A stretch of DNA of 64,000 nt from Halomicroarcula saliterrae (GCF_031624395.1 NZ_JAMQON010000008.1:1-64000), one strand, 5' to 3'. Counted from the first letter of the stretch, positions 12,937 through 47,095 are shown. The notes: a model not told the origin generated them from the letters alone. Numbers and translations are program-made.

Positions 12937-13135
12937 ACTCGAGTGTCTTGTTACAATCGTGACTTACGGAGCGTTCGTTGTGGCTGTGCTGAACGCGGCG
13001 AACGTATGAAACTGGCCGCAAGATGCTTCGAAGAATCGTGCCGAGTGCTCGGTACAATGGGTGTCCCTTACAGAACTGCAGCAGGCTGTCCGGAGGAGCC
13101 ATTACCGAGCGGCACCAATTCCACGTGACCCACAG

Positions 13136-13582
13136 ATGGAGCATGATCCCCGGTTTCAGGAAGTACAGCGATTTCGTCAGCCATGGCTCTGGGTACTTTT
13201 AGGTGGGGTCGGACTTCTCACGCTTGTATTAGGGCCCATCTCGTGGGGAGGGCTCGCTATCATTGTCGTGGTTGCTGGACTAATCTACAGTCTTCGCCTC
13301 CAGACGGCGGTAAGAGACGACGGTATCTATTTCAAAATGTGGCCGCTCCACCGTTCGTTCCGACGCATTCCGTGGTCGGAGATTGCGCGATACGAGTCCA
13401 AACAGTACGGCCCACTTCGCGAGTTCGGCGGCTGGGGAATTCGGTGGGCTCCTGGGAAAATAGCGTACAACGTCAGTGGCAATCGTGGAGTCTGGATTGA
13501 ACGGACGAATGGACGTGCAGTTCTTCTCGGATCACAACATGCCGAAGAGTTTGTTCGGGCTATCGACGAAGTAACTCCGTAG
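13136..13582 (+). CDS. Membrane protein with C-terminal PH-like domain (DUF6141-like)
   Basis: About 148 residues from the ATG at 13136; a GTG at 13061 would add 25 residues. Two transmembrane helices follow FRQPW (LWVLLGGVGLLTLVLGPISW and GGLAIIVVVAGLIYSL). A soluble domain then contains IPWSEIARYESKQY, FGGWGIRW and IAYNVSGNRGVWIE, ending in LLGSQHAEEFVRAI. The GGWGIR ... AYNVSGN ... GSQ signature is one I associate with DUF6141, a PH-like family of unknown role. It lies just downstream of the histidine kinase on the same strand, with about 200 bases between them. Confidence 0.7.
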   Translation: MEHDPRFQEVQRFRQPWLWVLLGGVGLLTLVLGPISWGGLAIIVVVAGLIYSLRLQTAVRDDGIYFKMWPLHRSFRRIPWSEIARYESKQYGPLREFGGWGIRWAPGKIAYNVSGNRGVWIERTNGRAVLLGSQHAEEFVRAIDEVTP

Positions 13583-13668
13583 TTCTCTGGATTTGTCCCT
13601 TGGACCCTACGAGATTCAAGGGATGCAACGTCACTCAATGTCGCACGAAACTGTACCGAGGCTCGTCA

Positions 13669-13983
13669 TCAGTTTTCTTCCTCCTGCAGCTCACTGCCTG
13701 TGACGTTGCTGTCTTGTACGCTCCCCAGCGAAGCTTCGAGTTCGTCAAGCCGGTCTGCGTGGTCGTCGAGACGCGCCTCTTGCTCAAGGTCGATACTGAA
13801 CAGTGCCGGCAGCATCGGATTCTGGTGGTTCAACAGCCCGCTCGCGTCGGCGTGCTCGCGGGCGTACTCGAACAGTCGATCAAACTGAGGCTGGTCGCGA
13901 CGCCGCAGTGCCCGGCGGAACTCCGCCCAGCGCTCTTCGATGGCTCGGAGCGCATCTCGGTACGTCGGGTTCGTGCGCCCCAT
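13669..13983 (-). CDS. Small haloarchaeal plasmid protein, second gene of the RecA-like operon
   Basis: A 104-residue charged helical protein starting MGRTNPTYRDALRAIEERWA. It is rich in Arg and Glu with a helical centre (DQPQFDRLFEYAREHADASG) and a C-terminal coiled segment (ARLDDHADRLDELEASLG). I recall similar proteins beside haloarchaeal replication genes, with no known function. Its ATG lies two bases after the stop codon of the RecA-like gene. A GGAGG lies inside the end of that gene at Shine-Dalgarno distance, which supports this start over a Met 11 codons earlier. The product may work with the RecA-like ATPase. Confidence 0.7.
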   Translation of the reverse strand: MGRTNPTYRDALRAIEERWAEFRRALRRRDQPQFDRLFEYAREHADASGLLNHQNPMLPALFSIDLEQEARLDDHADRLDELEASLGSVQDSNVTGSELQEEEN

Positions 13984-13985
13984 CG

Positions 13986-14930
13986 CTATCGACCTCCTGT
14001 TCCGGTTGCCGTCCACGCATCGAGTAAGGGGTCCGCGGTGGCCGATACCGTCTCACCGTCAGTTGTGACGCCTGTCCCGACACCCTCCGTGGTCGGCGTC
14101 GACGCGGCTGGCGTCGTCGGTTCCATACCGACCCGCGTAGCGCGTGCCGCGAGCAACTGTCGCCAGTAGGCAAACGTCGTCTGGTAGTACGTGCCGCCGT
14201 CGACGGGATAGACGAGTGTCTCGAAGCCCTCCCCACTGATTCTTGGCCCCATCCGGGTTTGCTCACACTCCAGATGGTGGTCGGCGGCCGTCGCGACCGG
14301 CGCGGTGAACTCGTCGCGCTTGCTTCGAGTGACGAGCACGGGGATGTCGTACCCCTCGGCGTAGGTCGCTAACTTTGCGAGCGCTCGGGCTTGGAGGGTC
14401 TCGGTGTGTGCCTCGCCGAGGGTATCGTTGGCACGGTACTGTGCATCGACGGCTGGGGCGACGATGAGCGAGGGTGTGTGAGGAGACGTCTCCCCATCGC
14501 AATCCGTGGACTGTCGCTCTCGCAAACCATCCACGGTCGTCGATTCCTGAATACAGTGGTTCACTGCCGTCGGGAGATCACAGACAGCGCCGTAATGTTG
14601 GTAGGCGGTGAATCCGCGTGCAACGTGGATCCGGTCGAGCAACCGTTGGCTGGGAGCAATTCGTGAGAGCGTGGTGGTCGTGGCGTGTCCGTTGGCGTCG
14701 ACCCAGAAAGCGGGCCCGTTGTGCATGAGGAGATGGTCAAGTACTATCGACTGCAGGATAGGCACGCCCCGACTGCCGTCGACGTCCAACAGCGTGATGC
14801 CGTCCTCAAGTGAGGGAAGTAGGACGTCGCCGCTCGCTGTATCAGGTTGGCTGGATATGGACCGATTCCGGTCAGCTCCTCGCGTTGGTTGCTCAATTTC
14901 CAATCGATTCGAGGGTGGGTGGTCTGACAT
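13986..14930 (-). CDS. RecA/RadA-like protein lacking a visible Walker A motif
   Basis: About 314 residues from the ATG at 14930 (a GTG six codons earlier is possible). The middle reads like the RecA-type core of haloarchaeal RadA-related proteins: LDVDGSRGVPILQSIVLDHL, a segment around RIHVARGFTAYQHY, and SLIVAPAVDAQYR as a Walker-B-like strand. It continues with LAKLATYAEGYDIPVLVTRS and a C-terminal strand region GGTYYQTTFAYWRQLL. No GxxxxGK[ST] loop is visible, so ATP hydrolysis is doubtful. The C-terminal 45 residues are Thr-rich and disordered. It forms an operon with the small 104-residue protein, next to orc and polB genes, suggesting a role in plasmid replication or recombination. Confidence 0.6.
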   Translation of the reverse strand: MSDHPPSNRLEIEQPTRGADRNRSISSQPDTASGDVLLPSLEDGITLLDVDGSRGVPILQSIVLDHLLMHNGPAFWVDANGHATTTTLSRIAPSQRLLDRIHVARGFTAYQHYGAVCDLPTAVNHCIQESTTVDGLRERQSTDCDGETSPHTPSLIVAPAVDAQYRANDTLGEAHTETLQARALAKLATYAEGYDIPVLVTRSKRDEFTAPVATAADHHLECEQTRMGPRISGEGFETLVYPVDGGTYYQTTFAYWRQLLAARATRVGMEPTTPAASTPTTEGVGTGVTTDGETVSATADPLLDAWTATGTGGR

Positions 14931-23008: not shown

Positions 23009-23962
23009 ATGAGTCCTAGTATAACAATGACGCCAGAGGAGAGGGACACTTTGTTGGAGTTATTGTCCCACGTATTCGAATCAGATGACGAGATCGATGG
23101 TCTTGTCTATCTCGACATCCAGAAGATATTCTATCATCTCCGAGAGCGATTAGACGATGAAAACACCATTAAAGAGCTGCTCCCGTACTATTGGTATATC
23201 GATGGTGTAGTTAGCGACACTGTTCAAGAAACTGTGAACCACGGGCTTGATACGGGTGTTCTTCAATCAAAACCGACAGCGGGTACTGGAACCGGTGAAT
23301 GGTACGAACCGGGTCAGGAAGGGGTCACTCCTGCAGAGGGGATTGGGGAAGACGACATTGCGACAGCGAAGAGAGAAATTAAATTGGCTATCGAGGAGGA
23401 CTACGATGTTTTCCGTAGTCATGAAGACAAAATCCAAGATGTCTACGGTGAGGCCCCTTACGATTTCCAGCGGTACTTCAAGCTAAATATACTATTCGCT
23501 ATCGAACAATTCTCTAATGACCGCCCACTATATCTTGGAACGGACAACCTAGCCTCAGAGATCAGTACTGCTGAAGCATATCTGCCGTTAGATACTGAAT
23601 TTGATGAATTCAACACTCTGTTTAGTCGATACGTGAATACTGCAAAGCGCTATCTGTCTGCTGTCGGGGAGCAGAACCGAATACTTGCAGACCGTTTCAA
23701 GCAGTTGTCGGACGGGGTTTGGCGTCTATATTGTCAGCAGCTTCGTCTTCTTGAACACGATTCGTACTATGACTCGAAGAGAGAGGAATGGGAAGATGAG
23801 TATCAACGAACTAGGCAGTTCGTAGCGAACGACCTAGTTGAGTTCCGTCAAGCTATCGACGACGAGTTTGACGAGGCGAATGAGTCAAACAGAGTTTCAG
23901 AAGATAGCAGTTGGGGGAAAATTGCCGCAAAGTACCTCGATAATCAATCGTCTGGTGAATAA
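23009..23962 (+). CDS. Unknown acidic helical protein, partner of a PIN-domain gene
   Basis: A 317-residue soluble, mostly helical protein that I do not recognise. Residues 8-80 are predicted helices (PEERDTLLELLSHVFESDDE; IFYHLRERLDDENTIKELL). A glycine-rich linker (TAGTGTGEWYEPGQEGVTPA) follows at about 91-110, then long helices from 120 to 300, including YVNTAKRYLSAVGEQNRILA and EYQRTRQFVANDLVEFRQAI. There is no transmembrane segment and no nucleotide-binding loop. The PIN-domain gene starts 15 bases after its stop. Position first in the cassette would fit an antitoxin or a sensor, but its size exceeds normal antitoxins. Confidence 0.65.
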   Translation: MSPSITMTPEERDTLLELLSHVFESDDEIDGLVYLDIQKIFYHLRERLDDENTIKELLPYYWYIDGVVSDTVQETVNHGLDTGVLQSKPTAGTGTGEWYEPGQEGVTPAEGIGEDDIATAKREIKLAIEEDYDVFRSHEDKIQDVYGEAPYDFQRYFKLNILFAIEQFSNDRPLYLGTDNLASEISTAEAYLPLDTEFDEFNTLFSRYVNTAKRYLSAVGEQNRILADRFKQLSDGVWRLYCQQLRLLEHDSYYDSKREEWEDEYQRTRQFVANDLVEFRQAIDDEFDEANESNRVSEDSSWGKIAAKYLDNQSSGE

Positions 23963-23977
23963 CCTACTCTTCTACTA

Positions 23978-24679
23978 ATGCCGAATCATTTCATCGAGAC
24001 AAATATTATAATAGGATACACTGTTGAGTGGGATCGTCAAGCACCCGTAGTGAGGTCGTATATTGATTCACTATCCGGAATTGACCTTCATACCAGCCCG
24101 AGAGTTCTATCGGAAGCGGAGGATGTCGTCAATGAACGCCGTCGGCTTGCCAAACAGGCTGCAAAGCATATCTTCCAAGATTTCGAAGCAGGATATTCCC
24201 GACCAGGAGTGGATGAAATAGTCGATTTTGTCTGGAAGAAACTGAGTCACTGTAGAGATGCTGCAGTCGACCACGTGATTCAGCATATCAAAGACAACGA
24301 ACACTATTATACGGGATTGACACAAGTGAGCAGCCGGACAGGACTACAGTCCACTAGCGATGATATTGACGATGACTTTAATGCAGCCGTCAATATGATT
24401 GCCAATATCAGAAACCAGAATTGTGACGGGTTCAAACCAGAAATATTCAAAAATATCAACCATAATTATAATAACTATTCAGTGTTCAGTACTATCGACA
24501 AGATTTTATCTGGGAAACCTACAGACAGAGATATTCTACTTGATTCATACCACCTAACTCAAGAAGAGAGCCTAAGTCTACTGTACTTCGTCACTATGGA
24601 TGGTGACTTCCTAGATAACGAATCTGATATTGAATCGTGTCTTAGCACAGTAGATGTGGAGCACCCAAGTTCAATCTAG
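23978..24679 (+). CDS. PIN-like nuclease domain protein
   Basis: A 233-residue protein with the spaced acidic residues of a PIN ribonuclease. The first strand reads HFIETNIIIGY with Glu7 where Asp is usual. A second acidic cluster, VLSEAEDVV, has Glu46. The C-terminal half has PTDRDILLDSYHL (Asp183, Asp185, Asp189), then FVTMDGDFL with Asp208 and Asp210, the typical last PIN strand. An unusual insertion of about 100 residues lies between the two halves. It follows the 317-residue gene at 15 bases, so the two form an operon. It is AT-richer than neighbouring genes, a sign of transfer. RNA cleavage as a toxin or defence effector is inferred. Confidence 0.65.
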   Translation: MPNHFIETNIIIGYTVEWDRQAPVVRSYIDSLSGIDLHTSPRVLSEAEDVVNERRRLAKQAAKHIFQDFEAGYSRPGVDEIVDFVWKKLSHCRDAAVDHVIQHIKDNEHYYTGLTQVSSRTGLQSTSDDIDDDFNAAVNMIANIRNQNCDGFKPEIFKNINHNYNNYSVFSTIDKILSGKPTDRDILLDSYHLTQEESLSLLYFVTMDGDFLDNESDIESCLSTVDVEHPSSI

Positions 24680-25381: not shown

Positions 25382-26109
25382 CTAACTCCAAACCCTCTCT
25401 ATCAATCTGACCAACGGCGCCACGAACAGGCGACGGACGGCAGTTCGCCGCCTGCGACTCCGGCTAATCCACCGGGCGATAGGTGGGCTCAGGGCGTAGT
25501 ACATTGAAATCAGCCAGCGGGTCAGATATGATTTGGCGAGGATGTCGTCGCGGAATCGACGGAGGACGTCTATCTCCGATGCTGTCGGTGACCCATACGC
25601 CGCGGTGGCAATGAAACAGCTGTCGGAGTCGGTCCGTTGGAATCCCATCTCGTTGGCGAGATACTGACTGGTGTCCCAATCTGCCGGCGGGATGAACGTC
25701 TCTGGCTGTAGTTCGACCCACTCGATCCTGGTGGGCCTGAAGATTCGGATTTCCTCGCGGTAGTAATCGTAGCCCACCAGGTACTGGATCCCTTCGTGCA
25801 TGGCCATGCCGTATGGGTCGAGTCCGCGGACACGGGTGCCACTGGACGACCGATATTGCATCCGCAATCGCTGGTTGTTCGTGAGTGCCTCGGAGAGCGT
25901 GGTTTTGACAGGGTGTTCGGCTGCGTGGCAGGCCCGACAGATCGTCTCGAGGTTGTCTAGATCGTGGCTGCCACCATCCGAGATGGGTGTTTGATGGTGG
26001 AATGCAGTTCTGTGTCGGTGGCGCCACACTGTTGGCAGGTGTATTCGTCGCGTTCTCGGACCCGCTGTGTGCGTTCCTCCCAGTCGTCCGGATACTCGCC
26101 CCAGCGCAC
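25382..26109 (-). pseudogene. HNH nuclease + WYL-like + CFI-box gene with a one-base frameshift
   Basis: The gene starts at a GTG at 26109 (MRWGEYPDDWEERTQRVRER). Its first frame carries the first HNH zinc knuckle, TCQQCGATDTELH. Near base 26000 the reading must shift one base to continue as HHQTPISDGGSHDLDNLETI and CRACHAAEH, which completes the HNH motif; one missing G would explain it. Next comes a WYL-like sensor segment (LRMQYRSSSGTRVRGLDPYG ... YLVGYDYYREEIRIFRPTRI). The last part is a CFI-box domain, CFIATAAYGSP, with a helical tail. The remaining 215-residue frame lacks the first zinc knuckle, so the HNH site is probably dead unless this is a sequencing error. Confidence 0.65.
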
Positions 26110-26298: not shown

Positions 26299-28191
26299 AT
26301 GAATAACTGCAATTACTCAACTGAACTCCCGCTTGGGGAAACAACACTCCCGTTGAAGGGAAGTGAGGGAATTCGCAAACTCGCAGAAAAAGCCGAGATT
26401 CGGACTGAAGACCAATCTTCGGAAGCGATAGAGTGGGAGTGTCCACACCCTATTCATGATGAAAGCGAGTCCCGTTGTATCTTCCATTTAGGCGAAGAAG
26501 GCCGCGCATCGACCACTGTTGCGGAGGTGCGAGATGCATTCGTAGATCGGTTAGAGGCTAACAGTTCCCGGTCCAATCAGTTCGTCGATGCAGTACTACC
26601 GGTTATTGATTTAAAACATGAGAGAGTAGATATCGGGGGCACTCCGCGAATCGTACTGGATGGTGCAGCTATCGTCTCTTTAGATTGCAGCGACAGTGAA
26701 TTGCCAGCTAGCATAACTGGGTATGACGTGAAAATCAAATCCTTCAAAGCTCACTTCGCGGATATCGATGGACATCTCCGATTCGAAGACTCGAAAATTG
26801 ATTCGTTCTCACTGATCGGTGCCACACTGAGCAAACGCATGATTATCGACAACTGTGTAATGGAGACAATCTCCGGCCATCGAACTTCATTCGAGAAGTT
26901 AGTTGAGATTAGTCAGTCAGAGATACTGGAAGCCGCTGACTTCTCGAAGGCGACATTTGAATCGGATGCGAGTTTTGTCGGCACGAGTTTCAAGAGTGAA
27001 TACGCTGAAACCGAGCTGGAAGAGGAAGAGCAACGTTATCGGTTTATGCACATGACTTTGCTCCCACTCCGTGGCATTAGACGAACCAGCACGGAACCGG
27101 ACCCGGATGCCTCATTTGGAGGAGAGCCTGATACTGACGATCTACAAATATACTACGGTGGCCGCCTATATGAGGATTCACGATTCTTCCAGTTCAGCGA
27201 CATCGACCCTCATGGTGCTGACTTCCGCGATGTTCGGTTCGAAGGTTCTGCAAATTTCGATTGTTCCCGACTGGAAAATGCCGAATTCAGTCGAATCGAG
27301 GCGACTGAATTATCATTCACAGAAACAGAAATATTTGGGTTAATTCATCTCTCGGGCGCTACAATCGAACGCCTTGAGTTACGCTGTATCCCGCTCGACG
27401 TACTCTCACCGGAAGCCGACGATTCGGACGGAACGTTTGCAGGTCTGAACGGGACGGGCCGTATCTACCTACACGACAGCCATATCAAATCCGGTCGGTT
27501 CATTCAACCAGATTCTGGCACTGTATACTACAGTCTTAGGGGCGCGACCATTGGCGACATCGATATCATACCACAGTCAGGCGCCTTTGAGCATATTATA
27601 GCGAACAAGACCAATTTCGATGGATTCGATTTCCCGGACTATCGCGAGAGTCTCCAAAGCCGCAACTGGACCATCGATGTCGATCCTCTATCTCCGCTTC
27701 CAGCTGAAGAGCGGGGTATGGACCAACGGGAGGTTACGTATTTGAAAGCCAAACAGGGTGCCAAATCTGTCGGTGATACCGTCGCAGTCTCGGCATTCTT
27801 CCGAAAAGAGATGCACAATCGTATCAGCCAGTACCAATGGGGATATCACGATGACCCATCACTGTTGGAGATTCTCGGTTCCATAGGACACATTCTGTCG
27901 AACCTGGCCTACAATGCTGTCACCGGCTACGGAGAGGACCCTCATCGCGTAGTCGCTTCTTATATACTGTTGACGGTAGGGATATCCGCTTTTGTTGCCT
28001 TCCCATTCGTTCTCGAGGAGCCGTCATCCTTCGTCGATGCAACACTCGCACTCTCCCGAATACTCGTTCTGGGTAGCAGCAATGAACTACCGCCTTGGCT
28101 CCAACCGCTGTACAGGCTGTTCGATCGCCTCGTAGTGCCGGGATTCGTGGCACTGCTCGTGTTCACTCTGACCCGGTCCGTCGAACGATGA
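26299..28191 (+). CDS. Pentapeptide-repeat protein with C-terminal ion-channel-like domain
   Basis: A 630-residue protein. Residues about 150-440 contain degenerate pentapeptide repeats (A-[DN]-F-x-x pattern: AADFSKATFESDASFVGTSF; GADFRDVRFEGSANFDCSRL) forming a right-handed beta-helix. A linker with KGAKSVGDTVAV-type sequence leads to two hydrophobic segments (SYILLTVGISAFVAFPFVLE and LVVPGFVALLVFTLTRS). The pre-helix motif AVTGYGEDPHRVV and the last pair of helices resemble two-helix potassium-channel-type domains attached to pentapeptide repeats in other prokaryotes, but no TVGYG filter is seen. The ATG at 26299 is the first in frame. It may be a membrane sensor or effector; that is inference. 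Confidence 0.7.
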   Translation: MNNCNYSTELPLGETTLPLKGSEGIRKLAEKAEIRTEDQSSEAIEWECPHPIHDESESRCIFHLGEEGRASTTVAEVRDAFVDRLEANSSRSNQFVDAVLPVIDLKHERVDIGGTPRIVLDGAAIVSLDCSDSELPASITGYDVKIKSFKAHFADIDGHLRFEDSKIDSFSLIGATLSKRMIIDNCVMETISGHRTSFEKLVEISQSEILEAADFSKATFESDASFVGTSFKSEYAETELEEEEQRYRFMHMTLLPLRGIRRTSTEPDPDASFGGEPDTDDLQIYYGGRLYEDSRFFQFSDIDPHGADFRDVRFEGSANFDCSRLENAEFSRIEATELSFTETEIFGLIHLSGATIERLELRCIPLDVLSPEADDSDGTFAGLNGTGRIYLHDSHIKSGRFIQPDSGTVYYSLRGATIGDIDIIPQSGAFEHIIANKTNFDGFDFPDYRESLQSRNWTIDVDPLSPLPAEERGMDQREVTYLKAKQGAKSVGDTVAVSAFFRKEMHNRISQYQWGYHDDPSLLEILGSIGHILSNLAYNAVTGYGEDPHRVVASYILLTVGISAFVAFPFVLEEPSSFVDATLALSRILVLGSSNELPPWLQPLYRLFDRLVVPGFVALLVFTLTRSVER

Positions 28192-28300
28192 TAGAAGCGA
28201 TACTGGATTTGGGTAGTGACAATTAAAGCTGGGTATTGGTTAGTAAGTAGCCAGTTTAGCATCGACCGTATTTTTAAACAGCAACCAGTGGGGGTAGGCA

Positions 28301-29116
28301 ATGGTCGTGGAACCAGCATGGCTCCAAGCCGGTTCGACTGTGATCCTGGTGGCTGTAACTGCATACTATACCTATTTACTCCATCGTCAGAACAAGCGAG
28401 AGCGTCGCACGTATCACTCGGATACACTCCGTGACCGTGTACAGGCTTGGCGGGACAATTTGCCCGAAGTAAAGCGCTCAACTGTGACGACAGCAGAACC
28501 ATCGTATTCGATGAGCGATGAGAGTGAGTTCTATGTTGCGCCGGACCGACTTGAGGAGGATCCGTATTTTCAGGATTTGCTGCGCAACCACGCCCCTGAG
28601 CTCGCCGAACAGAAGACCAACATCGAGGCTACTTATTCGGATTTCACCTCCTTGCGGGACCAATTTATCGAGAACTTCAACGACTATGAGCCGATCGAAT
28701 CGGCGTCGATTCCGCTTGAGCCGACAGAGGATTACCCAGGGTGGGTCTTCGATATGGCAGTCTCCCTATCACGAACCACAGATACCAAGACAGACTTGCA
28801 AGAGAGGGCGATTTCGCATATCGAACATGGTGTCAGTTCGACTGCTGGCCAGACCAGGTACCCGACGGGGAGACGGAATCAGACGCCAATTCTGACCCGG
28901 CCACGGGATAACTCGATCAAGAACGACGTAGAAGTCGTTTCTCGAGTGGTCGCTGAGGCTATCGACCGGATAGACACACTGGAGGAGTACGACCTTGCAA
29001 AGGAGGCTGGCGCTCAGCTCGATGAGATAGCTGGACTGCTGGAGGAACTCGAGGCTGAGCTGGTCGAATACGATGGGATGGCAACCTATCCTGGCACTTG
29101 TCCGTATCTGAAGTAG
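28301..29116 (+). CDS. Single-pass membrane protein of unknown function
   Basis: A 271-residue protein with one N-terminal transmembrane helix (about residues 10-26, GSTVILVAVTAYYTYLL) followed by a basic stop-transfer HRQNKRERR. The soluble remainder is acidic and helical. It includes a central segment (RNHAPELAEQKTNIEATYSD) and a C-terminal coiled region (AGAQLDEIAGLLEELEAELV). The architecture recalls small membrane-anchored accessory proteins. A TATA-like ATTTTTAAAC lies about 25-34 bases before the ATG. It follows the pentapeptide gene by 110 bases on the same strand but has its own promoter. Confidence 0.7.
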   Translation: MVVEPAWLQAGSTVILVAVTAYYTYLLHRQNKRERRTYHSDTLRDRVQAWRDNLPEVKRSTVTTAEPSYSMSDESEFYVAPDRLEEDPYFQDLLRNHAPELAEQKTNIEATYSDFTSLRDQFIENFNDYEPIESASIPLEPTEDYPGWVFDMAVSLSRTTDTKTDLQERAISHIEHGVSSTAGQTRYPTGRRNQTPILTRPRDNSIKNDVEVVSRVVAEAIDRIDTLEEYDLAKEAGAQLDEIAGLLEELEAELVEYDGMATYPGTCPYLK

Positions 29117-31056: not shown

Positions 31057-31293
31057 TTAGAAAAGCCACCCGATTTTCTCCCCTAGCCTGCGCCAGATCG
31101 ACCCTTGCCCCTCACCCGTCTCCCGTTCCTGCTCGGTTGACCTAGCGATGTTGATTGAAAGATTAAACGGAGCTATCTGCTTCTCGTCAAGCTTCTCAAT
31201 TTCTGGAAGATTCACGCCCATGAACTTCTCCGGGATATCCACCCCCTCCACGTCTGGAGATCCTAATCGCCAAATCGTGGCTATTCCAACCAT
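31057..31293 (-). CDS. Small protein overlapping the end of the 666-residue nuclease gene
   Basis: A 78-residue frame whose ATG lies 13 bases inside the 3' end of the upstream gene, which suggests translational coupling. The sequence is hydrophilic with several acidic residues (EKFMGVNLPEIEKLDEKQIA) and an amphipathic end, RLGEKIGWLF. No family was recognised. The overlap is the usual arrangement of a real operon partner, but the weak composition leaves doubt. If real, it belongs to the 31-40 kb ATPase/nuclease locus. Confidence 0.45.
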   Translation of the reverse strand: MVGIATIWRLGSPDVEGVDIPEKFMGVNLPEIEKLDEKQIAPFNLSINIARSTEQERETGEGQGSIWRRLGEKIGWLF

Positions 31294-33281
31294 CGGATAT
31301 ATGTATAGGTATCATCATCGGTCAGATGGCCCTCTACTTCCTTCCTAAACCCTGCAATACTATTCACAACTTCAGTGTGATCGGAGTCTACGAGATTTTC
31401 GACGTCTTTGAATGTCGGACGAAGAGTTCCCTTACGGACAAAGTACCCGAGAAAATCTAGTTCATCGTCACTCTCAAAGAACCCCTTTTCATTAGCCTTG
31501 ATTCGCTGTTCAGAATACCGTATGAATTCTTCAGGTGTATTGAGGACTCTCGAAATCAGATCGAGATGATGGGCGCTCACTATGTATGGCGTCTTTCCTC
31601 CTTCCAATAACCGGGTGTACTTAGTGGTCGCTAAATCTCCGTATGTGGTACTCATCACACCGATTGGAAGATACGTCTCTACTTGATGAAAGTCGATGCC
31701 AAGTTCATTCTCCAGAGTTTCATCATCTGTATTCTGAAGATAGTGGATACGGTGTGTTAATTGCGATGCGGCCTTTCCAATCCCCTCCGAGAAATCTTCA
31801 CGGATTGCATCCGGTCTTCCTTGAAATGCCTCTTTAGTGAGCTGCTTTGATTTTACCTCAAAGATTAGTACGGTATCCTCATGTCGAAGAAGTATATCTG
31901 TCTCCAGGTCTCCCAAGTATACACTTGAGCGTATCTCTGTATCTGGGAACAGTTTTTGAACACTATCGATAGACCAATGCTCGATAACGTCTCCCCATAT
32001 CTGGCTTTTGTTGCCTCTGATTTGATCACTAATATCGAAAAGGTCGTGATAGAAGGTGTTCAAGAGCGCATCTGTAAACTGGGTAGGTAGTGGAACGAGG
32101 AACTCTCCTTCACACTTGACTAACGGATGTTTCTCTAGAGGATTCAGTTGGCTATAGGGATTGTTGAATTCGATTTCACCAACTTCTGTACTAATACGAT
32201 TAAGGAACGCATCAAATCGAGCCGGATTTCGTATTCCGGCCCACGCACGTAGCACCTCTTTATCAAACCAGAGCAACCGGGTCGCACTTTCTAGTACGTG
32301 AGACCACTGCATCTTTTCAGCAAAAAGACGTTCCTTGCCGATGCTAGAGCGAGAGAATTTCTCCGCATCGATATCGTCACGTCGTTCCCAGAAACTGCCA
32401 ATAACTCTAAGAACGTCAGCATGATACCAGCGAATAACCTGATAGAGAAGCTTCCTCCTGTGATAAAAGAAATCGAGCATCTGTTTGCTATAGTCGCGTG
32501 CATCGCGGATCTCAAATCCGAACTCCTGTAGCAAGGCGAGATTGAAGGGACTGTACAGCCGCTCCATTGTCTCAATTGAATAGCCTGAATAGAGGTAATC
32601 ACTAGCTGAAATATTTGCCCGTCGCACTGAAGCTCGCACTCTATCTAAGTCATTTACTGGGTCAAATTCGTCGAACTTCTCGCTCACGTCATTGCATGAT
32701 TGGAAAAGGATTCCAAGGAGGTCTATCAGAGAGTGCAACTCAATTCCGTAGAGACTATCGGATGTAATCGATTCTGACGATTCAGTTCCGAACACTTCAG
32801 AGGGGTCTGGATACTGGTCACAGAGACTGATGGATGTCTCTGGTTCAATATGTGAGGAAGACGCAATCCCGACTGCTAGCTTAATCGTCTCAGCTGGATA
32901 CCCGGCTTCAGACCCCAAGTGATCATTCTGAGCCCACATTTCACCCATAGCATTAAACAGATGAAAATATGTCAAAGACGACTTTTGACCCACCGCTTGA
33001 ATCTGTTGGGATAAAGCATCAACCGCTTGCTGTACCTCGATCGATGGGACGTACTCTCGTTGGAAGGAACGACCATTGTGGCGGGCTGCCGTCTTCCTAA
33101 GGTCAAACCACGTAATACCCGAAATAAGCGGCTCTAATTGTGTAGTAAATCCAATCTCTTTGAATGCCTCAATCCCAGCGGTAAGAGTAGTTTCGACCTC
33201 CTGACAGTATTCACAGATACTGATTGAGGGTTGATTATCTTGCGTCGGACTTCCACACAGATAGCATACAGTCTCTTCCAT
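31281..33281 (-). CDS. 666-residue protein with zinc knuckle and C-terminal PD-(D/E)XK nuclease
   Basis: The N-terminus has two Cys-x2-Cys knuckles (CYLCGS, CEYCQE) within 30 residues, probably one zinc ribbon. A long helical region (about 40-400) follows. At about 400-450 it reads NPLEKHPLVKCEGEFLVPLP, a block shared with the 512-residue protein at 38135. The nuclease part (about 470-540) has VYLGDLETDILLRHEDTVLI, then FEVKSKQLTKEAF. The D-x(n)-E-x-K pattern (ETDILL ... FEVKSK) is that of NERD/restriction-type nucleases. It is divergent from the STAND ATPase, with about 300 bases between them. Confidence 0.65.
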   Translation of the reverse strand: MEETVCYLCGSPTQDNQPSISICEYCQEVETTLTAGIEAFKEIGFTTQLEPLISGITWFDLRKTAARHNGRSFQREYVPSIEVQQAVDALSQQIQAVGQKSSLTYFHLFNAMGEMWAQNDHLGSEAGYPAETIKLAVGIASSSHIEPETSISLCDQYPDPSEVFGTESSESITSDSLYGIELHSLIDLLGILFQSCNDVSEKFDEFDPVNDLDRVRASVRRANISASDYLYSGYSIETMERLYSPFNLALLQEFGFEIRDARDYSKQMLDFFYHRRKLLYQVIRWYHADVLRVIGSFWERRDDIDAEKFSRSSIGKERLFAEKMQWSHVLESATRLLWFDKEVLRAWAGIRNPARFDAFLNRISTEVGEIEFNNPYSQLNPLEKHPLVKCEGEFLVPLPTQFTDALLNTFYHDLFDISDQIRGNKSQIWGDVIEHWSIDSVQKLFPDTEIRSSVYLGDLETDILLRHEDTVLIFEVKSKQLTKEAFQGRPDAIREDFSEGIGKAASQLTHRIHYLQNTDDETLENELGIDFHQVETYLPIGVMSTTYGDLATTKYTRLLEGGKTPYIVSAHHLDLISRVLNTPEEFIRYSEQRIKANEKGFFESDDELDFLGYFVRKGTLRPTFKDVENLVDSDHTEVVNSIAGFRKEVEGHLTDDDTYTYIRWLE

Positions 33282-33578
33282 CCCGTTCTAATGCCTGAAT
33301 CTAACTTCTATATTTTCCCATAAAAAGCCAATGAGGGGCCGAGATTTGTACTTGATTGCGTACGTGAATGCATATGAACGTCTTCGTTGAATCCAGTCTC
33401 ATAGACTCCCCTGATTGCCACTGTTCTTATTGTGTTAAGGAAATCGCCAGTACAACGAGCTCCTCACCTATTAGAGGGGGTAATAAACTCTATTCATAGC
33501 TGAAATGCTTACACGGTAGAAAAAATGAAGTACGGCTTACAGAACAATTATTACACTTGAATAAGGATTCTGTCGATA
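33282..33578. promoter_or_regulatory. Divergent intergenic region of the ATPase/nuclease locus
   Basis: A gene-free, AT-rich stretch between the 666-residue nuclease (minus) and the STAND ATPase (plus). It must hold both promoters. AATTATTA about 30 bases before the ATPase ATG at 33579 is a plausible TATA. Confidence 0.35.
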
Positions 33579-36500
33579 ATGTGTCTTTCCCGCCTGAAGG
33601 AGGTGATACTCAGGTACACAACCTTCGGCGGGGAACTCGATTTTCCAAGATTTCTCTTCAGACGTGGGCTTGCAGCCATCGGGGGCCTATTCGCACTACG
33701 CATGGCCCTTGTCGGTCCACAGATTCCCGAGACGGACATGGCGATAGGAGTACTTGCCATTCTGTTCATCGTCAGCCTCGTTCTTATGTTCTACTTCATC
33801 CGGAACACCGTCCAGTATACAATGAAAGAAGAGATACGACAATTGCGAGGGATATTGGCCACCGGAATCACCTATCTCCTCCTCAGTGTAATCGTGGTAA
33901 TCACCCTCTATCCGCTGCTGAATATCCTTCGCCCAAAACCCTTCAGCTATTCCTCGACTGAAATTGCCGCTGGACTCAACATCGCGAGTTACGCCGCTCT
34001 TCTGACTATCATCGCCAACAGGAGCACTCTGAAATCTGAATACCTAAGTCTTCAAACCATAAAAAGCCGCTTTGCGGAGGAGACAAATCAGGCCCTGAAC
34101 CGAATACAGACCAATATTGATGGTATCGGTCACATCGAACGGCCAGAAACCGCCCGGGCAGCAGATCTGCTTTCCAACGGCGAGAACGTTATAGTAACCG
34201 GGGAAGGAGGCGTCGGTAAGAGCGGAGTTCTTGCTGGCGTAAGGGAAGAATGGGAGGAAGATGTCCTGATCATCGATTCTAGTACCCATTCGGCAGTCCG
34301 GAACCAAACCGAACTCTCGACCGCTCTCGGATTCGACAACGGGATACAACGGCCTATCAAGCAACTCGCCGTCGCCAACCACATCCTCCTTATCATCGAT
34401 CAGTTGGACGATATTGATCGTGAGGCTGGCAATGTCTATCAGGACTTCATTCTGACTGCCGCAGACCTCGACAACGTCGCCGTCGCATTCGCCTGCCGCA
34501 ATCACGACCTCACCGTTCGACGGGAGTACGAATCACTGGACAATGCTGAATCGTTTACAACCCGCCTGACCATTGGCTTACTTCGAACAACAGACGCAGA
34601 AGAGCACGTTCAGGACCTGATCGGGGAATCACCGAGCGACGACCTCATCCAAATCGGCCGGAAAATCGAGAACCTCGACATCATCGCTCAGCTCGCTAAG
34701 GACGGTGTCGATTTCAGCGGCATCAGCGGTGAAATTTCGCTCTGGGACAAGTTCCGGGAGCAGCTTGGCCGCGAGGATCACCCGGACGACGGGGCACGGA
34801 CCGGCGACGACATCATCGAACGACTCGTTGAGTACGCCGTCGACGCGATAGAGGACCAGTCCGACGGACTCAACATATTCACCGTCGGCACCAGCCAGGA
34901 CTGGATCGACCAACGATTAATAAACAGGGGCGTCATCGAACAATCAACCGACCGACCGGGCAACCGTAAGTACCGTTTCCGCCACCTCGACTTCCAACGG
35001 TACCTCTACGCCTGGAACGCCGTGCAGGACAACAGGCCCATCCAAGAAGTCACATCTCGACTTGATGAACGGCTGGGCAAAGACATCTTCCGATTCATGC
35101 TAGTGCTCTACATGCAGAGCGACGGCGACATGGCCAACCAGATTGGCGACATTTCAGTCGACTCTGACACCACCGACCACGCCCGACAGTACCTCGAAGA
35201 GATGCTTGACGACGAAACGGGCCTCGGCGACTACACCGCGAAGACGATTCTGGACGAGATCAAGACGTGGGATATCTCCGGGAACGACGAATTCGCAGGT
35301 CTCATACTAGACAACCTCCAGGACCGTGATACACTCTACAACTATTTTTTCGATAGTAACACCCACATATCTTGGGCAGAAGCTCTCCACGACCGGGGCG
35401 ACTACACCGACCCTCCTAAAATCCTATTCAGTTACCTCCGCGAGCTCGCACCATACCATCCCGAAATCGTGGCCGAAATCGTTCGGGACATCCAGACTAA
35501 CGATCGCCACTCGCTCGGCTTGGTCGTCACGGTGATCCGCGAACTACCGTTCGACGTAGCGGCGGACCTCGTCGATGTAGTTCAGGCCTCCGTCACGCAA
35601 ACGCCATCCGACTGGCACGACACCCAAGCAACCAGACTTCTCCAAGATCTCATTGAAGCCGGTGAAACCAGTGCGGGTCTGGACCTACTCGATACACTTC
35701 TCCAACCGCGCCATCCCACTGATGACGAATACAACAGGGCCCAACCCGTCACCCGCCTCTACAGTCTGGAATCCGTATTGAACGAAACCCTTGACACACT
35801 CGTTGAAGCAGAAGGAGAGAACGCGATAGATGTCCTTGAATCACGCCTTCGGGAAGCAGTCGTAATAGAATCCGAGATTCAGGACAAGGACATCAACGCG
35901 ATCGTGGGGCCAATAACGACCAACATCGTGGGCTCAGACCTGTCGAACCAGAGCCAAACCTCCCTCAAAACCTTGCTCATCGGAGCACATTGCGGAGCGT
36001 TAGACCATTGGTTTGACCAGAACCCTGCGGACGAGTCGCACCACGACCTCGTCGAACGCTACCTCGGCGACATTACCCTGTTTCGACGGCTTGGACTCTA
36101 TGTGCTCAAGGAGCACAAGGATCACTACCCCCGTCTTGTAACTGCCGAACTCCTTGATGCATCCAACTACAAGGAGGTATGGATCAAAGAGGACTTCCTC
36201 CGCCTCCTCCGCGACGGGTTTACCGTCCTGTCTGAGGAAGACCGACTCCACGTCATCGAAATAATCACCGACGTCCCCACCCGTGACTCAATCGACGAAG
36301 CCGCTGAACAGCGAAGTAAACGGTTCGACGACTGCACGGAGGACGAACTTGCGGAAGCTGAGATAGCCCGATGGGTCCGCGACCGACTCTGGCTGATTAG
36401 GGACCACCTCCCGGACGATCATGCGCAGCACCTGAACACCCTCATCGACGAGTACGGTGAACCGGATGATGTCCTCTCGTTCGTCAAGACCAGTGGCGGA

Positions 36501-38087
36501 TTCGTCTCACAAGAAAGTCCACTCCCTGAAGAGGAATTCAGCGAGATGCCTCCTAGCGACCTCATCGATTACTGCATCGACGAACCCTTCGAGACGACTG
36601 GCTGGGAAGGACGCGAATCCGGGGCTGGTGGGCTCTCCGAGATCAGTCCACGAGGACTCGCTGAATCCGTTATTCCACGCATTCTTGAAGAGGTCACCGC
36701 GTTCCAAGACGACATACCCCGGTTACAGGATGCCCCTTCGATATACGTCAGCGAACTCCTCCGCGGATTACGAATGAAGATCGACGATAACCCCGATTAC
36801 ATTCCCTCCGACTTTCCGTGGACACCGTTCATCGATCTCTGCGAGGCCGTTGCCTCGAACCCCGAGGAATGGTCCGAATCGGCTCGGATGAACGTCGCAC
36901 GACTCTTCCGCGAGGCGTACAGCATAGACTCAATCGAATCTATCCACGCCCACAACGATAAAATCAAGCAAATCCTCTTTGTCCAGCTCGACGACCCCGA
37001 TCCAACCGATGAAAGAGAACACCCTCCGGAGGGATACGCCGGCTACAACGACCCCGCACACGTGGCAATAAATTCGGTCCGACCGCTCGCCCTTGGGGCC
37101 ATCCTTATGTATTCATACCGTCGAGCCAACCAGCAGGGCTACGAGGGATACACCGAGGAGCAGAAATCTGGCTTCGAACCAGATGTCCGCGAACGAATCG
37201 AGAATATAATGCAGAAAGAATCTCTTTCTTCGCGTGCAACCCTCGGACGCTGGCTGAACACCATCTGGAGCTTCGACCACAACCTCGTACTCGACAACTT
37301 CGACAAATTATTCCCCCGTAACCAGACCCACCGCGCGAAGAAAATGTTCTCCGCCACCTGGGATGCCTACCTCGGATACAGTCGCCCGCATGAAACATTA
37401 TTCGACCACCTCCGCCCCTGCTACCTCCACGGCATCGACATGCTTGTCGCTGGCGAGAACACAGCTATCCACGGGGTTGAACGTGGACTGGCAGCCCACC
37501 TACTTAACGCCTACCTCAACGGGTATGATGAACGTGATGACCGTCAAAGTCTCCTATCCTACCTATACGATAAGGAAGAACCGGAGCTAGCCCGACAGGT
37601 GGCGTGGCAGCTCTGGCGCTGGGGAAAAGATAAAGAAGAGATTCGTGAAGACTGGGACAAAGTCCAGACACTGTGGGAACAACGGATTACGCAGGTTGAT
37701 GATGCGGGCGCCTATGCCGTGGAATTCCAATGGTTCGTCGAGTGGCTTCCCCTAATTTCGGAGCGGACTGCGTTCGAAGACATAGCGCCCTTGATTATCG
37801 ACACAGCCCCGTTCATCGCGCGTGAGAGACGGGCATGGGAGACTGTCGAATCATACTTGGAGGAATATGCCGAGGCATATCCCGGTCTGGTCGTTGAGGT
37901 ATATGATTCACTCATGGAAGAAGAAACTCGGCCGAATTGGATTTCGTTCACCGACACTACCGCAGCCATTCTTGAACATGGCCTTGACGAGGATCCTGAA
38001 ACGAGGCGAACTGCGCTAGACATCGCTGAGGACTATTTCAGCGATGGGGACGATACCGCAGAACAGTTTTTGGACGATCATACATAG
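33579..38087 (+). CDS. Giant membrane-anchored STAND/NACHT-like ATPase
   Basis: A 1502-residue protein. Four hydrophobic helices occupy residues 28-150 (LAAIGGLFALRMALVG; AIGVLAILFIVSLVLMFYFI; ITYLLLSVIVVITLYPLL; AGLNIASYAALLTIIANRS). A P-loop follows at 207-216 (TGEGGVGKSG), with Walker B at 268-280 (HILLIIDQLDDID). The NTPase core continues to about 500 with KYRFRHLDFQRYLYAW, like the winged-helix part of STAND proteins. Residues 500-1500 are helical repeats with many short amphipathic helices, a likely sensing array. The predicted mode is oligomerisation on ligand binding and action through the membrane segment. Both neighbouring genes encode nuclease-type proteins. Immune-type function is inference; the NTPase assignment is good. 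Confidence 0.7.
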   Translation: MCLSRLKEVILRYTTFGGELDFPRFLFRRGLAAIGGLFALRMALVGPQIPETDMAIGVLAILFIVSLVLMFYFIRNTVQYTMKEEIRQLRGILATGITYLLLSVIVVITLYPLLNILRPKPFSYSSTEIAAGLNIASYAALLTIIANRSTLKSEYLSLQTIKSRFAEETNQALNRIQTNIDGIGHIERPETARAADLLSNGENVIVTGEGGVGKSGVLAGVREEWEEDVLIIDSSTHSAVRNQTELSTALGFDNGIQRPIKQLAVANHILLIIDQLDDIDREAGNVYQDFILTAADLDNVAVAFACRNHDLTVRREYESLDNAESFTTRLTIGLLRTTDAEEHVQDLIGESPSDDLIQIGRKIENLDIIAQLAKDGVDFSGISGEISLWDKFREQLGREDHPDDGARTGDDIIERLVEYAVDAIEDQSDGLNIFTVGTSQDWIDQRLINRGVIEQSTDRPGNRKYRFRHLDFQRYLYAWNAVQDNRPIQEVTSRLDERLGKDIFRFMLVLYMQSDGDMANQIGDISVDSDTTDHARQYLEEMLDDETGLGDYTAKTILDEIKTWDISGNDEFAGLILDNLQDRDTLYNYFFDSNTHISWAEALHDRGDYTDPPKILFSYLRELAPYHPEIVAEIVRDIQTNDRHSLGLVVTVIRELPFDVAADLVDVVQASVTQTPSDWHDTQATRLLQDLIEAGETSAGLDLLDTLLQPRHPTDDEYNRAQPVTRLYSLESVLNETLDTLVEAEGENAIDVLESRLREAVVIESEIQDKDINAIVGPITTNIVGSDLSNQSQTSLKTLLIGAHCGALDHWFDQNPADESHHDLVERYLGDITLFRRLGLYVLKEHKDHYPRLVTAELLDASNYKEVWIKEDFLRLLRDGFTVLSEEDRLHVIEIITDVPTRDSIDEAAEQRSKRFDDCTEDELAEAEIARWVRDRLWLIRDHLPDDHAQHLNTLIDEYGEPDDVLSFVKTSGGFVSQESPLPEEEFSEMPPSDLIDYCIDEPFETTGWEGRESGAGGLSEISPRGLAESVIPRILEEVTAFQDDIPRLQDAPSIYVSELLRGLRMKIDDNPDYIPSDFPWTPFIDLCEAVASNPEEWSESARMNVARLFREAYSIDSIESIHAHNDKIKQILFVQLDDPDPTDEREHPPEGYAGYNDPAHVAINSVRPLALGAILMYSYRRANQQGYEGYTEEQKSGFEPDVRERIENIMQKESLSSRATLGRWLNTIWSFDHNLVLDNFDKLFPRNQTHRAKKMFSATWDAYLGYSRPHETLFDHLRPCYLHGIDMLVAGENTAIHGVERGLAAHLLNAYLNGYDERDDRQSLLSYLYDKEEPELARQVAWQLWRWGKDKEEIREDWDKVQTLWEQRITQVDDAGAYAVEFQWFVEWLPLISERTAFEDIAPLIIDTAPFIARERRAWETVESYLEEYAEAYPGLVVEVYDSLMEEETRPNWISFTDTTAAILEHGLDEDPETRRTALDIAEDYFSDGDDTAEQFLDDHT

Positions 38088-38134
38088 TTCCGGCCTATAT
38101 CTTTCACCCCTCATGTCTACATTTTACCTACAAT

Positions 38135-39673
38135 CTATTTCTTAATATTTTGTAAATGTGATTTGTCATTGAATCGCTCGCTGATGTAGATTGTGATAAT
38201 GTCTTTCTTCGCTGCTTCTTCTACGCCCTTACGAAATTCTTCACTGGTTCGGTAGTTGTCAAAGTAGAACGCCCAGTATTCCCGCTCGCTGAATCCCCAC
38301 ACCGGCATATTGCCCTCGTATCCGGTCCGCCAGATCAGGAATTCGTCGAACAGATTTGCCTCGTCCTCCTGAATGAGTTGGTAGAGGTCGTAGAGTGTGA
38401 TGACCACTATCCGTTCATGCTCTGCGATGTGGTCGTGGATATCGCCCATTCCCAATTGTTGATCCGCCCGCGCATTACCAGAGTACAACGTGGGAAGAAA
38501 TCCGTCAAGAATGACTATGCCGCCTGTATCAATCTCATCGGAGTTCTTGTTGCCGGTAAGATTATATACCAAACCGAATTCATCATCGAGACCGTCAACA
38601 TAGTCTAAGGCGTTCTCTATCTGATCGACAGCCTGAGTCACCTTCTGTGTAAATCGATTCTTGATAATCTCTACACGGTTCGGAATCTTCCGAAAAATCG
38701 GATGGGACTTTATTTCAACCACCCAATATGAATCCTCAAAAAAGAGTAGCCCATCTGCTTCTCCAGGATTGGGATCGTGGATATACTCGAACTCCTTGAC
38801 GAAGTTTCGACAGGGTATCTGTTGTAATAGTTCTTGAGCTAGTTCCTCAACGACACCGCCCTTCTCTTTGTTTTCTACTTCCTGTACCTGCTTGAACTGC
38901 CCAACGAATTCCTCAATACGGTACTGTGCTGTAGTCAACAACACTTCAGGGAAGGGGACAACGATCTCACGCTCCTTCACCCCTTTTACTTGGAAAACAG
39001 GATTCGAAAAGAAGTCCAGCGAAGAATCATCTCCCGAATATGAGAGGAAATCAAGAATATCCTGAGCCTTTTCGATTCGCTCCTGATGTCGGCTTGGATC
39101 AATAGTTGGATCGTCAGGTAGAGTCCCCTCTACGAATGACTTAATTATCTCCTTTCGACTGAGTGTGACCCTCCGATTCCACATCTGCTGAAACTGCTTG
39201 CTCGGTTCTTCGATATTCGAGAAATCAGCGTAGTCTTCTTTCGATTTGAACCGGTTCAAATCAGACAGGATCGGCTCGGACTCCTCCAAGATTGTATCTC
39301 GAATTAATGCTTCGAACGAGAGGAGATCAGAAATGGCAAATTCATCCTGATTGGATAGTGGCTCCTCGAGATGACTATATCGGAATAGTAGATATCCTTG
39401 GAAATCTTGAGGGTTGATATCCTCTGGAAGTGTAAGCAGCGACTCTTTGAACCTTTCCTCGAAATCGAGATTGGTGTCCTCTGCTCTCGATTGCTTTTGA
39501 CCGGCAAACTCTCTGATTTCGGCTACATTGAGTTTCTCTTGATTGAATTCGCTATTCGAAATGCGGTTGGCAAAATATTGTCGTATCACTGGACGTCGTT
39601 CGGTGTTGTATCGTCCCAGAGAAGAGATATAGCGGAGGTTCTTTCGAAAAATATCCGAACTCATTGTATCCAA
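38135..39673 (-). CDS. 512-residue protein with C-terminal PD-(D/E)XK nuclease, related to the 666-residue one
   Basis: The N-terminal 200 residues are helical, with the conserved stretch FEERFKESLLTLPEDINPQD. A block at about 225-250 reads DFFSNPVFQVKGVKEREIVV, then PFP, matching the NP...K...VPLP block of the 666-residue protein. The nuclease part (about 295-350) is EADGLLFFEDSYWVVEIKSH, i.e. a D-x(n)-E-x-K active site. It converges on the STAND ATPase gene with 47 bases between stop codons. The sequence is AT-rich for a haloarchaeon. It lacks the N-terminal zinc ribbon of its relative. Confidence 0.65.
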   Translation of the reverse strand: MDTMSSDIFRKNLRYISSLGRYNTERRPVIRQYFANRISNSEFNQEKLNVAEIREFAGQKQSRAEDTNLDFEERFKESLLTLPEDINPQDFQGYLLFRYSHLEEPLSNQDEFAISDLLSFEALIRDTILEESEPILSDLNRFKSKEDYADFSNIEEPSKQFQQMWNRRVTLSRKEIIKSFVEGTLPDDPTIDPSRHQERIEKAQDILDFLSYSGDDSSLDFFSNPVFQVKGVKEREIVVPFPEVLLTTAQYRIEEFVGQFKQVQEVENKEKGGVVEELAQELLQQIPCRNFVKEFEYIHDPNPGEADGLLFFEDSYWVVEIKSHPIFRKIPNRVEIIKNRFTQKVTQAVDQIENALDYVDGLDDEFGLVYNLTGNKNSDEIDTGGIVILDGFLPTLYSGNARADQQLGMGDIHDHIAEHERIVVITLYDLYQLIQEDEANLFDEFLIWRTGYEGNMPVWGFSEREYWAFYFDNYRTSEEFRKGVEEAAKKDIITIYISERFNDKSHLQNIKK

Positions 39674-39932: not shown

Positions 39933-40738
39933 ATGCCCGAGATCGGCACCTACGCCCGTGTCTCAACGACAGACCAGGACCCACAACGACAGCTCGACGA
40001 ACTTCGAGAGTTTGGCAAAAACACGTATGACGAGCCAGAGATCCACACCTACGCAGATATCATCAGCGGGACTGAAACACAGCGTGGTGAAGAGTACCAG
40101 CGACTCCGTGTAGATATTGAAGACGGACCCTGGACGTCGTCGTTGTCCACGAACTCTCACGTCTTTCTCGACTCGGCGCCGGCGAAATCCACGGGTTCCT
40201 CGAGTTCTGTCTGAGTCACGAAACTGGCGTTCAAGATCTGGAAGTCGGACTGGAAATTAGCCTTGAGGATGGCCTCGTTGACAGAGCGGTGAGTCAGCTT
40301 ATCGCCGGTGTGATGGGTGACCTCGCCCGGGTTGAGCACAAACAGAAGCTCCGTCGGATTCAATCCGGTATCGACGCTGCAAAAGAGGCTGGCCGATGGA
40401 CTGGACGGCCCCCAGCTGGGTTCGATGTCAAAGACGGCTATCTCCAGGTCAACGCCGATGAGTTCCTGACTATTCGACGCGCGCTCGAACGCATTGAGCA
40501 AGGCTATACCTATGCTGACGCAGCTGATGGAACACGTGTCGCGGAATCAACGTTGCGGGTCCTCTATGACGACCGCCGTGACCTCTACTTCTACGCTGAA
40601 GCTGAAGACGAGCGCCTCCAAGCCGCCGCAGAAGAACTCGAGGCACTAGAGAAGCCGGATATTCCCGATGATACGAGTCTCCCCAGGCAAGAAATTCGAA
40701 CTATCGTTCGCGATGAAATCTACCGCTATCAGCAGTAG
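39933..40738 (+). pseudogene. Serine recombinase (resolvase/invertase type) with a one-base frameshift
   Basis: The first frame from 39933 opens MPEIGTYARVSTTDQDPQRQ, the catalytic serine block (Ser11), and continues to IEDGPW near base 40128. The reading then shifts and continues as VVVVHELSRLSRLGAGEIHG and QLIAGVMGDLARVEHKQKLR, and RRIQSGIDAAKEAGRWTGRP, all standard resolvase blocks. The end has an HTH-type region with a KPDIPDDTSLPRQEIR tail. A single missing G in TGG(G)AC near 40128 restores one frame of about 267 codons. So this is a recently inactivated or mis-sequenced recombinase. It lies directly next to the ATPase/nuclease locus. Confidence 0.8.
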
Positions 40739-45847: not shown

Positions 45848-46117
45848 AATGCAACCCCACCATCTAGCAACTGCTTATTTTTGCCATGGTTATACATCTG
45901 GCGAGAATCATCAGTGACTCTGCTGTCAGCCTGTTTCTGAGACATTGTAATGCGCCGATAGCACGATTTTTGGGCCAACAAATTCAGTCAGTAATTCACA
46001 GTTCAATACTATAGTGGCACCTCGGATTCCTACCAACTGGGACACCGCCGCATGTTCATACGATACGGGCACCTTCTGTGTGATAAGGACCACCATGACT
46101 TCCGGAGGGACGTAACG

Positions 46118-47095
46118 ATGTCTGATGATATCACTACACGGACCAGCGGTGACCGTGAACATGAGTCCCAGAAGCAGGAACCAGAGCGCGATGGCTCTGC
46201 CATCGAAGCCTGCCCAGAGTGTGGTGGTGGTATAATTGAAGACGAGGCTCACGGTGAACAGACCTGTGAGAGCTGTGGGTTAGTTTTCGAGGAAGCTCTC
46301 GTCGATCGAGGACCAGAGTGGCGAACCTTCGAAGCTGGCGACAACAGCAAAAAGAGTCGTGTAGGCGCTCCGACAACTAAGCTGATGCACGATAAGGGAC
46401 TGAGTACAAAAATCAGCTGGCAGGACAAAGATGCCAATGGGGCAGCCATAGCTGCTCGGAAGCGGGCACGCTTACAGCGTCTTCGAACGTGGGACGAACG
46501 ATTTCGGGCCAAGGACGCCACTGAACGGAACCTCAAACAGGCGTTCGGGGAAATCGACCGGATGGCATCCGCATTAGGTATCCCGGAATCTGTTCGTGAA
46601 ACTGCTGGTGTACTATACCGGCGGGCAGCCGAAGAGGATCTACTCCCGGGGCGGTCAATAGAGGGCATGTCAACAGCAGCGTTGTATGCAGCCGCGCGGC
46701 AACAGGGAATGCCCCGTCCCCTTTCAGCGTTTGCTGATGTCAGTCGAGTCGAAGAGATTCGGATCCAACGGGCCTATCGATATCTCTCCCGTGAGCTCGG
46801 ACTGACACTCGAACCCGAGGATCCTACGGAATACTTGCCTCAGTTCGCTTCTGCACTCGATGTGAGTGAGGAAGCACAGCGAGTGGCTCGCGACATTCTA
46901 GAAGTAGCGACTCAAAACGCGATTCAAAGTGGGAAGAGTCCAGCCGGATTAGCGGCCGCAGCATTGTATGCTTCTACCCACCTTACGAACGAGCAGTTAA
47001 CACAAGAGACTGTGAGTAACGTCTGTCACATCTGCCAGACGACTATCCGGAGTCGCTATCAAGAACTCCTCGAAGTATACGCGGAACATCAATAA
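46118..47095 (+). CDS. tfb: Transcription initiation factor TFB
   Basis: About 325 residues from ATG 46118 (MSDDITTRTSGDREHE); a frame upstream to 46052 exists but adds non-conserved residues. The zinc ribbon is CPECGGGIIEDEAHGEQTCE then SCG (Cys-x2-Cys ... Cys-x2-Cys). The B-finger region RRGPEW...SRVGAP is present as EWRTFEAGDNSKKSRVGAPT. Two cyclin-like repeats follow; the first includes IDRMASALGIPESVRETAGV and the second ESPTEYLPQFASALDVSEEA (about 240). Haloarchaea use several TFBs to direct different gene sets; this plasmid copy could serve the metal-resistance genes around it. Confidence 0.9.
   Translation: MSDDITTRTSGDREHESQKQEPERDGSAIEACPECGGGIIEDEAHGEQTCESCGLVFEEALVDRGPEWRTFEAGDNSKKSRVGAPTTKLMHDKGLSTKISWQDKDANGAAIAARKRARLQRLRTWDERFRAKDATERNLKQAFGEIDRMASALGIPESVRETAGVLYRRAAEEDLLPGRSIEGMSTAALYAAARQQGMPRPLSAFADVSRVEEIRIQRAYRYLSRELGLTLEPEDPTEYLPQFASALDVSEEAQRVARDILEVATQNAIQSGKSPAGLAAAALYASTHLTNEQLTQETVSNVCHICQTTIRSRYQELLEVYAEHQ

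Follow-up and report, generated by a model that had tools for sequence, protein, structure and literature searches.

It is in bacteria that STAND immune receptors have been studied best, and several STAND families are regulators. Avs1-4 recognise the terminase, the portal or another phage protein (PMC12931631), and the bacterial NLR-related bNACHT proteins have a tripartite design of effector, nucleoside triphosphatase (NTPase) and sensor (PMC12169576). Here we analyse a locus in a 64,000-nucleotide stretch of DNA from Halomicroarcula saliterrae (the window, by which we mean the whole stretch; feature coordinates are counted from its first letter). The locus encodes a 1502-amino acid (aa) ATPase that lies between the genes of two PD-(D/E)XK proteins, N1 and N2. 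The ATPase is tripartite like the bNACHT proteins, resembles Avs4 (AVAST type 4, PDB 8dgf) in length and order of parts, and over some 800 C-terminal residues matches the PADLOC model of DSR1 (defense-associated sirtuin 1). We propose that it is probably a haloarchaeal antiviral receptor of STAND (NLR-like) type that works from a single gene, a relative of Avs4 in which four membrane helices replace the N-terminal nuclease. What may be new is an archaeal STAND receptor that combines a membrane output with a Dsr1-type sensor. A preliminary description of this DNA had read the ATPase and both nucleases as one candidate defence system of three genes. The parts of the locus are as follows.

33579-38087, plus strand: TM-STAND protein (the ATPase), 1502 aa, with membrane helices, STAND NTPase and alpha-solenoid sensor; proposed stand-alone immune receptor
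33654-34013, plus strand: four-helix membrane region of the ATPase, aa 26-145, from the mean hydropathy of six homologues
34200-34223, plus strand: Walker A motif GEGGVGKS of the ATPase, aa 208-215, conserved in relatives
34380-34418, plus strand: Walker B motif HILLIIDQLDDID of the ATPase, aa 268-280, with D274, Q275, L276 and D277 invariant
34971-35015, plus strand: region of the winged-helix-like STAND motif YRFRHLDFQRYLYAW of the ATPase, aa 465-479, with F467, H469, Y475, Y477 and A478 invariant
35184-38084, plus strand: predicted alpha-solenoid sensor of the ATPase, aa 536-1502, with the Dsr1 model match at aa 646-1454
31281-33281, minus strand: N1, a 666-aa PD-(D/E)XK protein with an N-terminal CxxC...CxxC motif; a neighbour, for which membership with the receptor is not supported
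31647-32009, minus strand: N1 nuclease domain, aa 425-545, with E434, D462, E475-x-K477 and Q507
38135-39673, minus strand: N2, a 512-aa PD-(D/E)XK protein; a neighbour that lies with the ATPase in one relative and is found elsewhere without it
38474-38866, minus strand: N2 nuclease domain, aa 270-400, with E276, D307, E320-x-K322 and Q351

Motifs and their order place the ATPase among the STAND proteins: the two Walker motifs, A and B, are in place and are kept in relatives in an alignment of homologues, and a winged-helix-like segment comes next, ahead of the long C-terminal repeats. The segment at aa 465-479, which we infer to be winged-helix-like and name accordingly, carries an RFRH--F--YLYA motif conserved in the family. 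The ratio of non-synonymous to synonymous substitution (dN/dS) against the nearest relative is 0.14, and the ATPase is therefore under purifying selection. Averaged over six membrane-type homologues, hydrophobic peaks lie at residues 26-44, 55-73, 92-110 and 127-145 (mean Kyte-Doolittle 1.67-2.32), ahead of which stands a conserved Y[TS]TF-E--F motif at aa 13-22 (Y13, T15, F16, E19 and F22 invariant). Avs4 has a nuclease at its N-terminus, whereas no nuclease motif or match was found at that of the ATPase, where the hydrophobic helices stand. The outline drawn in the preliminary description, a membrane STAND ATPase with a P-loop, a Walker B motif, four N-terminal helices and a long helical repeat sensor, thus holds.

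The NTPase is most like that of Avs4. When a profile of ten relatives was compared with the PDB, Avs4 was the sole sequence below E 0.001 (1.1e-6; next 1.7e-3), and this match takes in the helix before the P-loop as well as the NTPase. In NCBIfam, Avs4 was the only match of the window ATPase (E 0.0072, 13.5 bits, residues 162-228) and of its relative at locus L049 (2.1e-9), and the best match of the relative at L050 (7e-7). Given the profile match, and 13.5 bits set against an equivalog cut-off of 1500, the ATPase is therefore kin to Avs4 in its switch domain, yet not an Avs4. Two further assignments were considered and rejected. For the window protein the top Pfam match was NACHT (PF05729; E 0.005), a weak one whose 17.1 bits lie below the gathering cut-off of 26.7, a point in which the ATPase differs from the bNACHT proteins; two relatives pass the AAA_16 cut-off. 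A KAP P-loop NTPase was set aside as the helices (26-145) precede Walker A (208) and do not lie inside the P-loop domain, and the window ATPase had no KAP match at E 1.

The sensor half is where the resemblance to DSR1 lies. Residues 536-1502, about 970 in all, are predicted to form an all-alpha solenoid array (mean predicted local distance difference test, pLDDT, 85). The PADLOC Dsr1 model matches the C-terminal part of the ATPase with E 6.8e-32 across 800 residues, and that of a relative with 4e-37, a link that rests on PADLOC models, with no bacterial Dsr1 sequence in the comparison. The match is limited to model positions 421-1181, that is, after the SIR2 region; short haloarchaeal proteins match positions 26-209, which we take as the SIR2 part. 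The ATPase thus differs from DSR1 in that it has no SIR2 domain, and a STAND NTPase and membrane helices precede its sensor. A search of plasmids for a bacterial Dsr1-type sequence returned haloarchaea and one weak match. By sequence the sensor was not detected as Avs4, and its predicted fold can be aligned with portal-bound Avs4 over 636 residues (Z 11.1, root-mean-square deviation (rmsd) 9.9).

We observed the same sensor behind several different front ends. Four membrane helices precede it in the window protein, in L045-L049, and on plasmids of Haloferax mediterranei (pHME132), Haladaptatus and Natronorubrum, and the membrane type forms one clade with support of 100/100. A restriction endonuclease (REase)-like domain with an Avs4-like NTPase takes this place in L050, other N-termini are found in L051, L062 and L063, and L052-L061 begin directly with a different NTPase, have the same sensor and lack an effector domain. 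When profiles of the membrane type were compared with those of the L052-L061 type, the sensors matched at 6e-142 (943 columns) and the NTPases at just 5e-6. A constant sensor with varying effector and switch is a usual trait of immune receptors, and it identifies the sensing half as residues 536-1502.

Three of these relatives are of interest in themselves. The L050 protein (10159-14691), nuclease-like at its N-terminus as Avs4 is, is a possible archaeal Avs4-type nuclease receptor. The large haloarchaeal group L052-L061 may have its effector encoded elsewhere. In L058, a shorter second protein of 687 aa (12592-14655), about 34% identical to other members of the ATPase family, is encoded near a full-length relative.

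In the mechanism that we favour, the solenoid of about 970 aa would directly bind a conserved protein that the virus makes during infection. Ligand binding would then free the Avs4-like NTPase, with its Walker A and B motifs, for ATP binding and oligomerisation, as might be expected from its family, and the clustered N-terminal helices would permeabilise or depolarise the membrane, stopping the infected cell. N1 and N2 would act independently of the receptor, probably as DNA-targeting defence genes in the same island. We suggest more tentatively, as a possibility somewhat short of even, that the Dsr1-type solenoid is a portable sensor of viral proteins shared by archaea and bacteria, with at least four outputs (SIR2 NADase, nuclease-STAND, membrane-helix STAND and NTPase-only), and that in haloarchaea the infected cell is stopped by an NLR-like, membrane-embedded pore under the control of this sensor. 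These proteins make up a clear archaeal set of STAND receptors, often carried on haloarchaeal plasmids, whose sensor matches Dsr1, a protein whose layout had looked unrelated to Avs. Were the sensor portable, a trigger identified for one member would predict those of the rest, and the sensing halves would form a link between DSR1 and Avs4. A practical consequence is that model-based annotation can mislabel proteins of the ATPase type as Dsr1.

Several points weigh against a stand-alone membrane receptor of this kind. The fold match of the sensor is unspecific for solenoids: CAND1, karyopherins and PP2A equal or exceed the Avs4 score, and Foldseek returned generic HEAT/ARM proteins only. The membrane helices are drawn from hydropathy, and the window protein taken singly has just two of the four peaks above the cut-off. 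Its match to the Avs4 NTPase is likewise weak when it is compared alone and becomes clear with the family profile only. The ATPase adjoins N2 in one relative besides the window, and a functional link between the two is possible. Lastly, the defence-type genes seen around relatives are a description of neighbourhoods and not a measure of enrichment.

Could the nucleases instead be the effectors? In a three-gene system the STAND ATPase would sense infection and switch on DNA cutting by one of the flanking nucleases or by both, which would suit the adjacency of the genes in the window, the homology of N1 and N2, and a block (window 33378-39251) shared with Halorubrum persicum (L045) at 87% nucleotide identity, in which the ATPase lies together with the 3' part of N2. 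However, that block stops in the intergenic space between the ATPase and N1, and N2 there lacks its first ~140 residues and adjoins a transposase-like gene. Nor do the gene orientations form an operon: N1 and the ATPase are divergent across 297 base pairs (bp), and the ATPase and N2 converge with a 47-bp gap, spacings that agree with the 300 and 47 bases of the preliminary description (the interval it gave, from 31057, overshoots the end of the N1 gene at 31281 by about 220 bp). We surveyed 391 haloarchaeal genomes, part of the class, and found relatives of the ATPase in 21 (5%, patchy and often plasmid-borne), of N1 in 18 (one of these, G249, being a cross-match to its N2) and of N2 in five. 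No genome among the 391 other than the window's own holds all three families, and with that genome left out the overlaps of ATPase and nuclease are at chance (P about 0.19 for each nuclease). Close copies also occur apart. On a Haladaptatus caseinilyticus plasmid the ATPase (84%) has no N1 or N2 next to it, and plasmid pHME132 of the laboratory archaeon Haloferax mediterranei ATCC 33500 has a membrane-type ATPase (E6P09_RS19370) without the nucleases; a full N2 at 87% lies on Haloferax gibbonsii pHG3 with no adjoining ATPase, and Halomontanus rarus has N1 at 63% without ATPase or N2. A conserved three-gene neighbourhood was thus not found, and we consider a three-gene system very improbable. 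The preliminary description had itself staked the proposal on homologues occurring together, and largely they do not; for DNA cleavage by the nucleases downstream of the ATPase we found no positive support. Its statement that no named system has this layout stands for the three genes together; the ATPase, taken singly, is near Avs4 in design and has a sensor matching the Dsr1 model. A smaller unit, the receptor with its convergent N2, would account for the gene order conserved between the window and H. persicum, but this pair recurs in H. persicum only, with N2 truncated there, and both a full N2 with no receptor beside it and close receptors with no N2 are known; we hold such a unit to be quite unlikely.

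The ATPase might also serve outside defence, as a membrane signalling protein or stress regulator. Several STAND families do regulate, and the defence reading is built on sequence and models. Yet the ATPase is rare and patchy, is often plasmid-borne among defence and transposase neighbours, and shows no DNA-binding output domain; its sensor matches Dsr1, its NTPase matches Avs4, and the swapping of its front end is typical of immune receptors. A non-defence role therefore seems unlikely to us, and the ATPase is very likely an immune protein. As to the form it takes, we return to the single-gene membrane receptor set out above. A scan of a genome collection with six membrane-type members gave five loci, most of them already found, and no relative was found in viral contigs or phage records.

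That the flanking proteins are related PD-(D/E)XK nucleases, as had been proposed, is borne out. N1 and N2 are homologous by alignment (BLASTP, 25% over 158 residues, E=6e-7), and G430, E434, D462, E475, K477 and Q507 of N1, which correspond to G272, E276, D307, E320, K322 and Q351 of N2, are invariant in the two proteins and 16 relatives. Both have the D...E-x-K set and supporting E of PD-(D/E)XK enzymes, and the fold was compared for N1, whose predicted model (pLDDT 77) has the core. This model aligned with Nt.BspD6I (Z 11.8), Upx (10.7), Cdn1 (9.7), Can2 (9.1) and SduA (8.5); the Upx alignment spans 363 residues at an rmsd of 8.7, with no sequence match to Upx from the family profile, and Foldseek of N1 gave nothing below E 0.001. 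The nuclease family profile (A3) matches Can2 at 4.8e-7, and among the 18 members nine have NERD and five Card1_endonuc matches. No CARF domain was found in N1 or N2 by Pfam. Assignment to Shedu (SduA) was rejected, N2 scoring 15.7 bits against an SduA_C cut-off of 27 and N1 giving no match. Like Can2/Card1, Upx, Shedu and NERD nucleases, N1 and N2 have a PD-(D/E)XK core, and they differ from these in an extra N-terminal helical part, to which N1 adds the CxxC...CxxC motif. We conclude that they are probably lone DNA-targeting nucleases of NERD/Can2-like type, separate defence genes in the same island. Distant N1 relatives also occur on bacterial plasmids. In L071, L072, L073 and L075, an N1 relative adjoins three successive genes of similar size, arranged alike in each locus and with no NCBIfam match in L071; nowhere else does an N1 relative seem to keep constant neighbours.

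The contig of the window reads as plasmid-like: a Haloarcula plasmid matches its orc1/cdc6 replication protein and its B-type polymerase region. The neighbours of ATPase relatives take in AbiE, a DISARM methylase, a type IIG restriction-modification system, CARF and further proteins of defence type, together with several transposases; those of N1 and N2 relatives include AbiEi, a GajB-like helicase and DRT-associated helicase-like proteins. Directly after the N2 gene, the reading of a serine recombinase/resolvase is split over two frames (39933-40738); this recombinase is probably broken and would lie at the island's edge. On the other side, one reading frame (25382-26029) joins an HNH nuclease motif to a WYL domain (Pfam 1.5e-9 and 1.9e-15). 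At 26299-29116, a pentapeptide-repeat protein with C-terminal hydrophobic segments is followed by a second protein, which has a 29-30% relative near the ATPase homologue in L046 (13519-14634). Two small genes lie side by side at 23009-24679, the second PIN-like by eye with no Pfam match, and are perhaps a toxin-antitoxin pair. TFB (TFIIB-like) genes recur near ATPase and N1 relatives, often with a gene of ~300 aa (window 46052-47095; L045:10276-11253; L056:5272-6249; L065:514-1461), and perhaps reflect a shared plasmid backbone.

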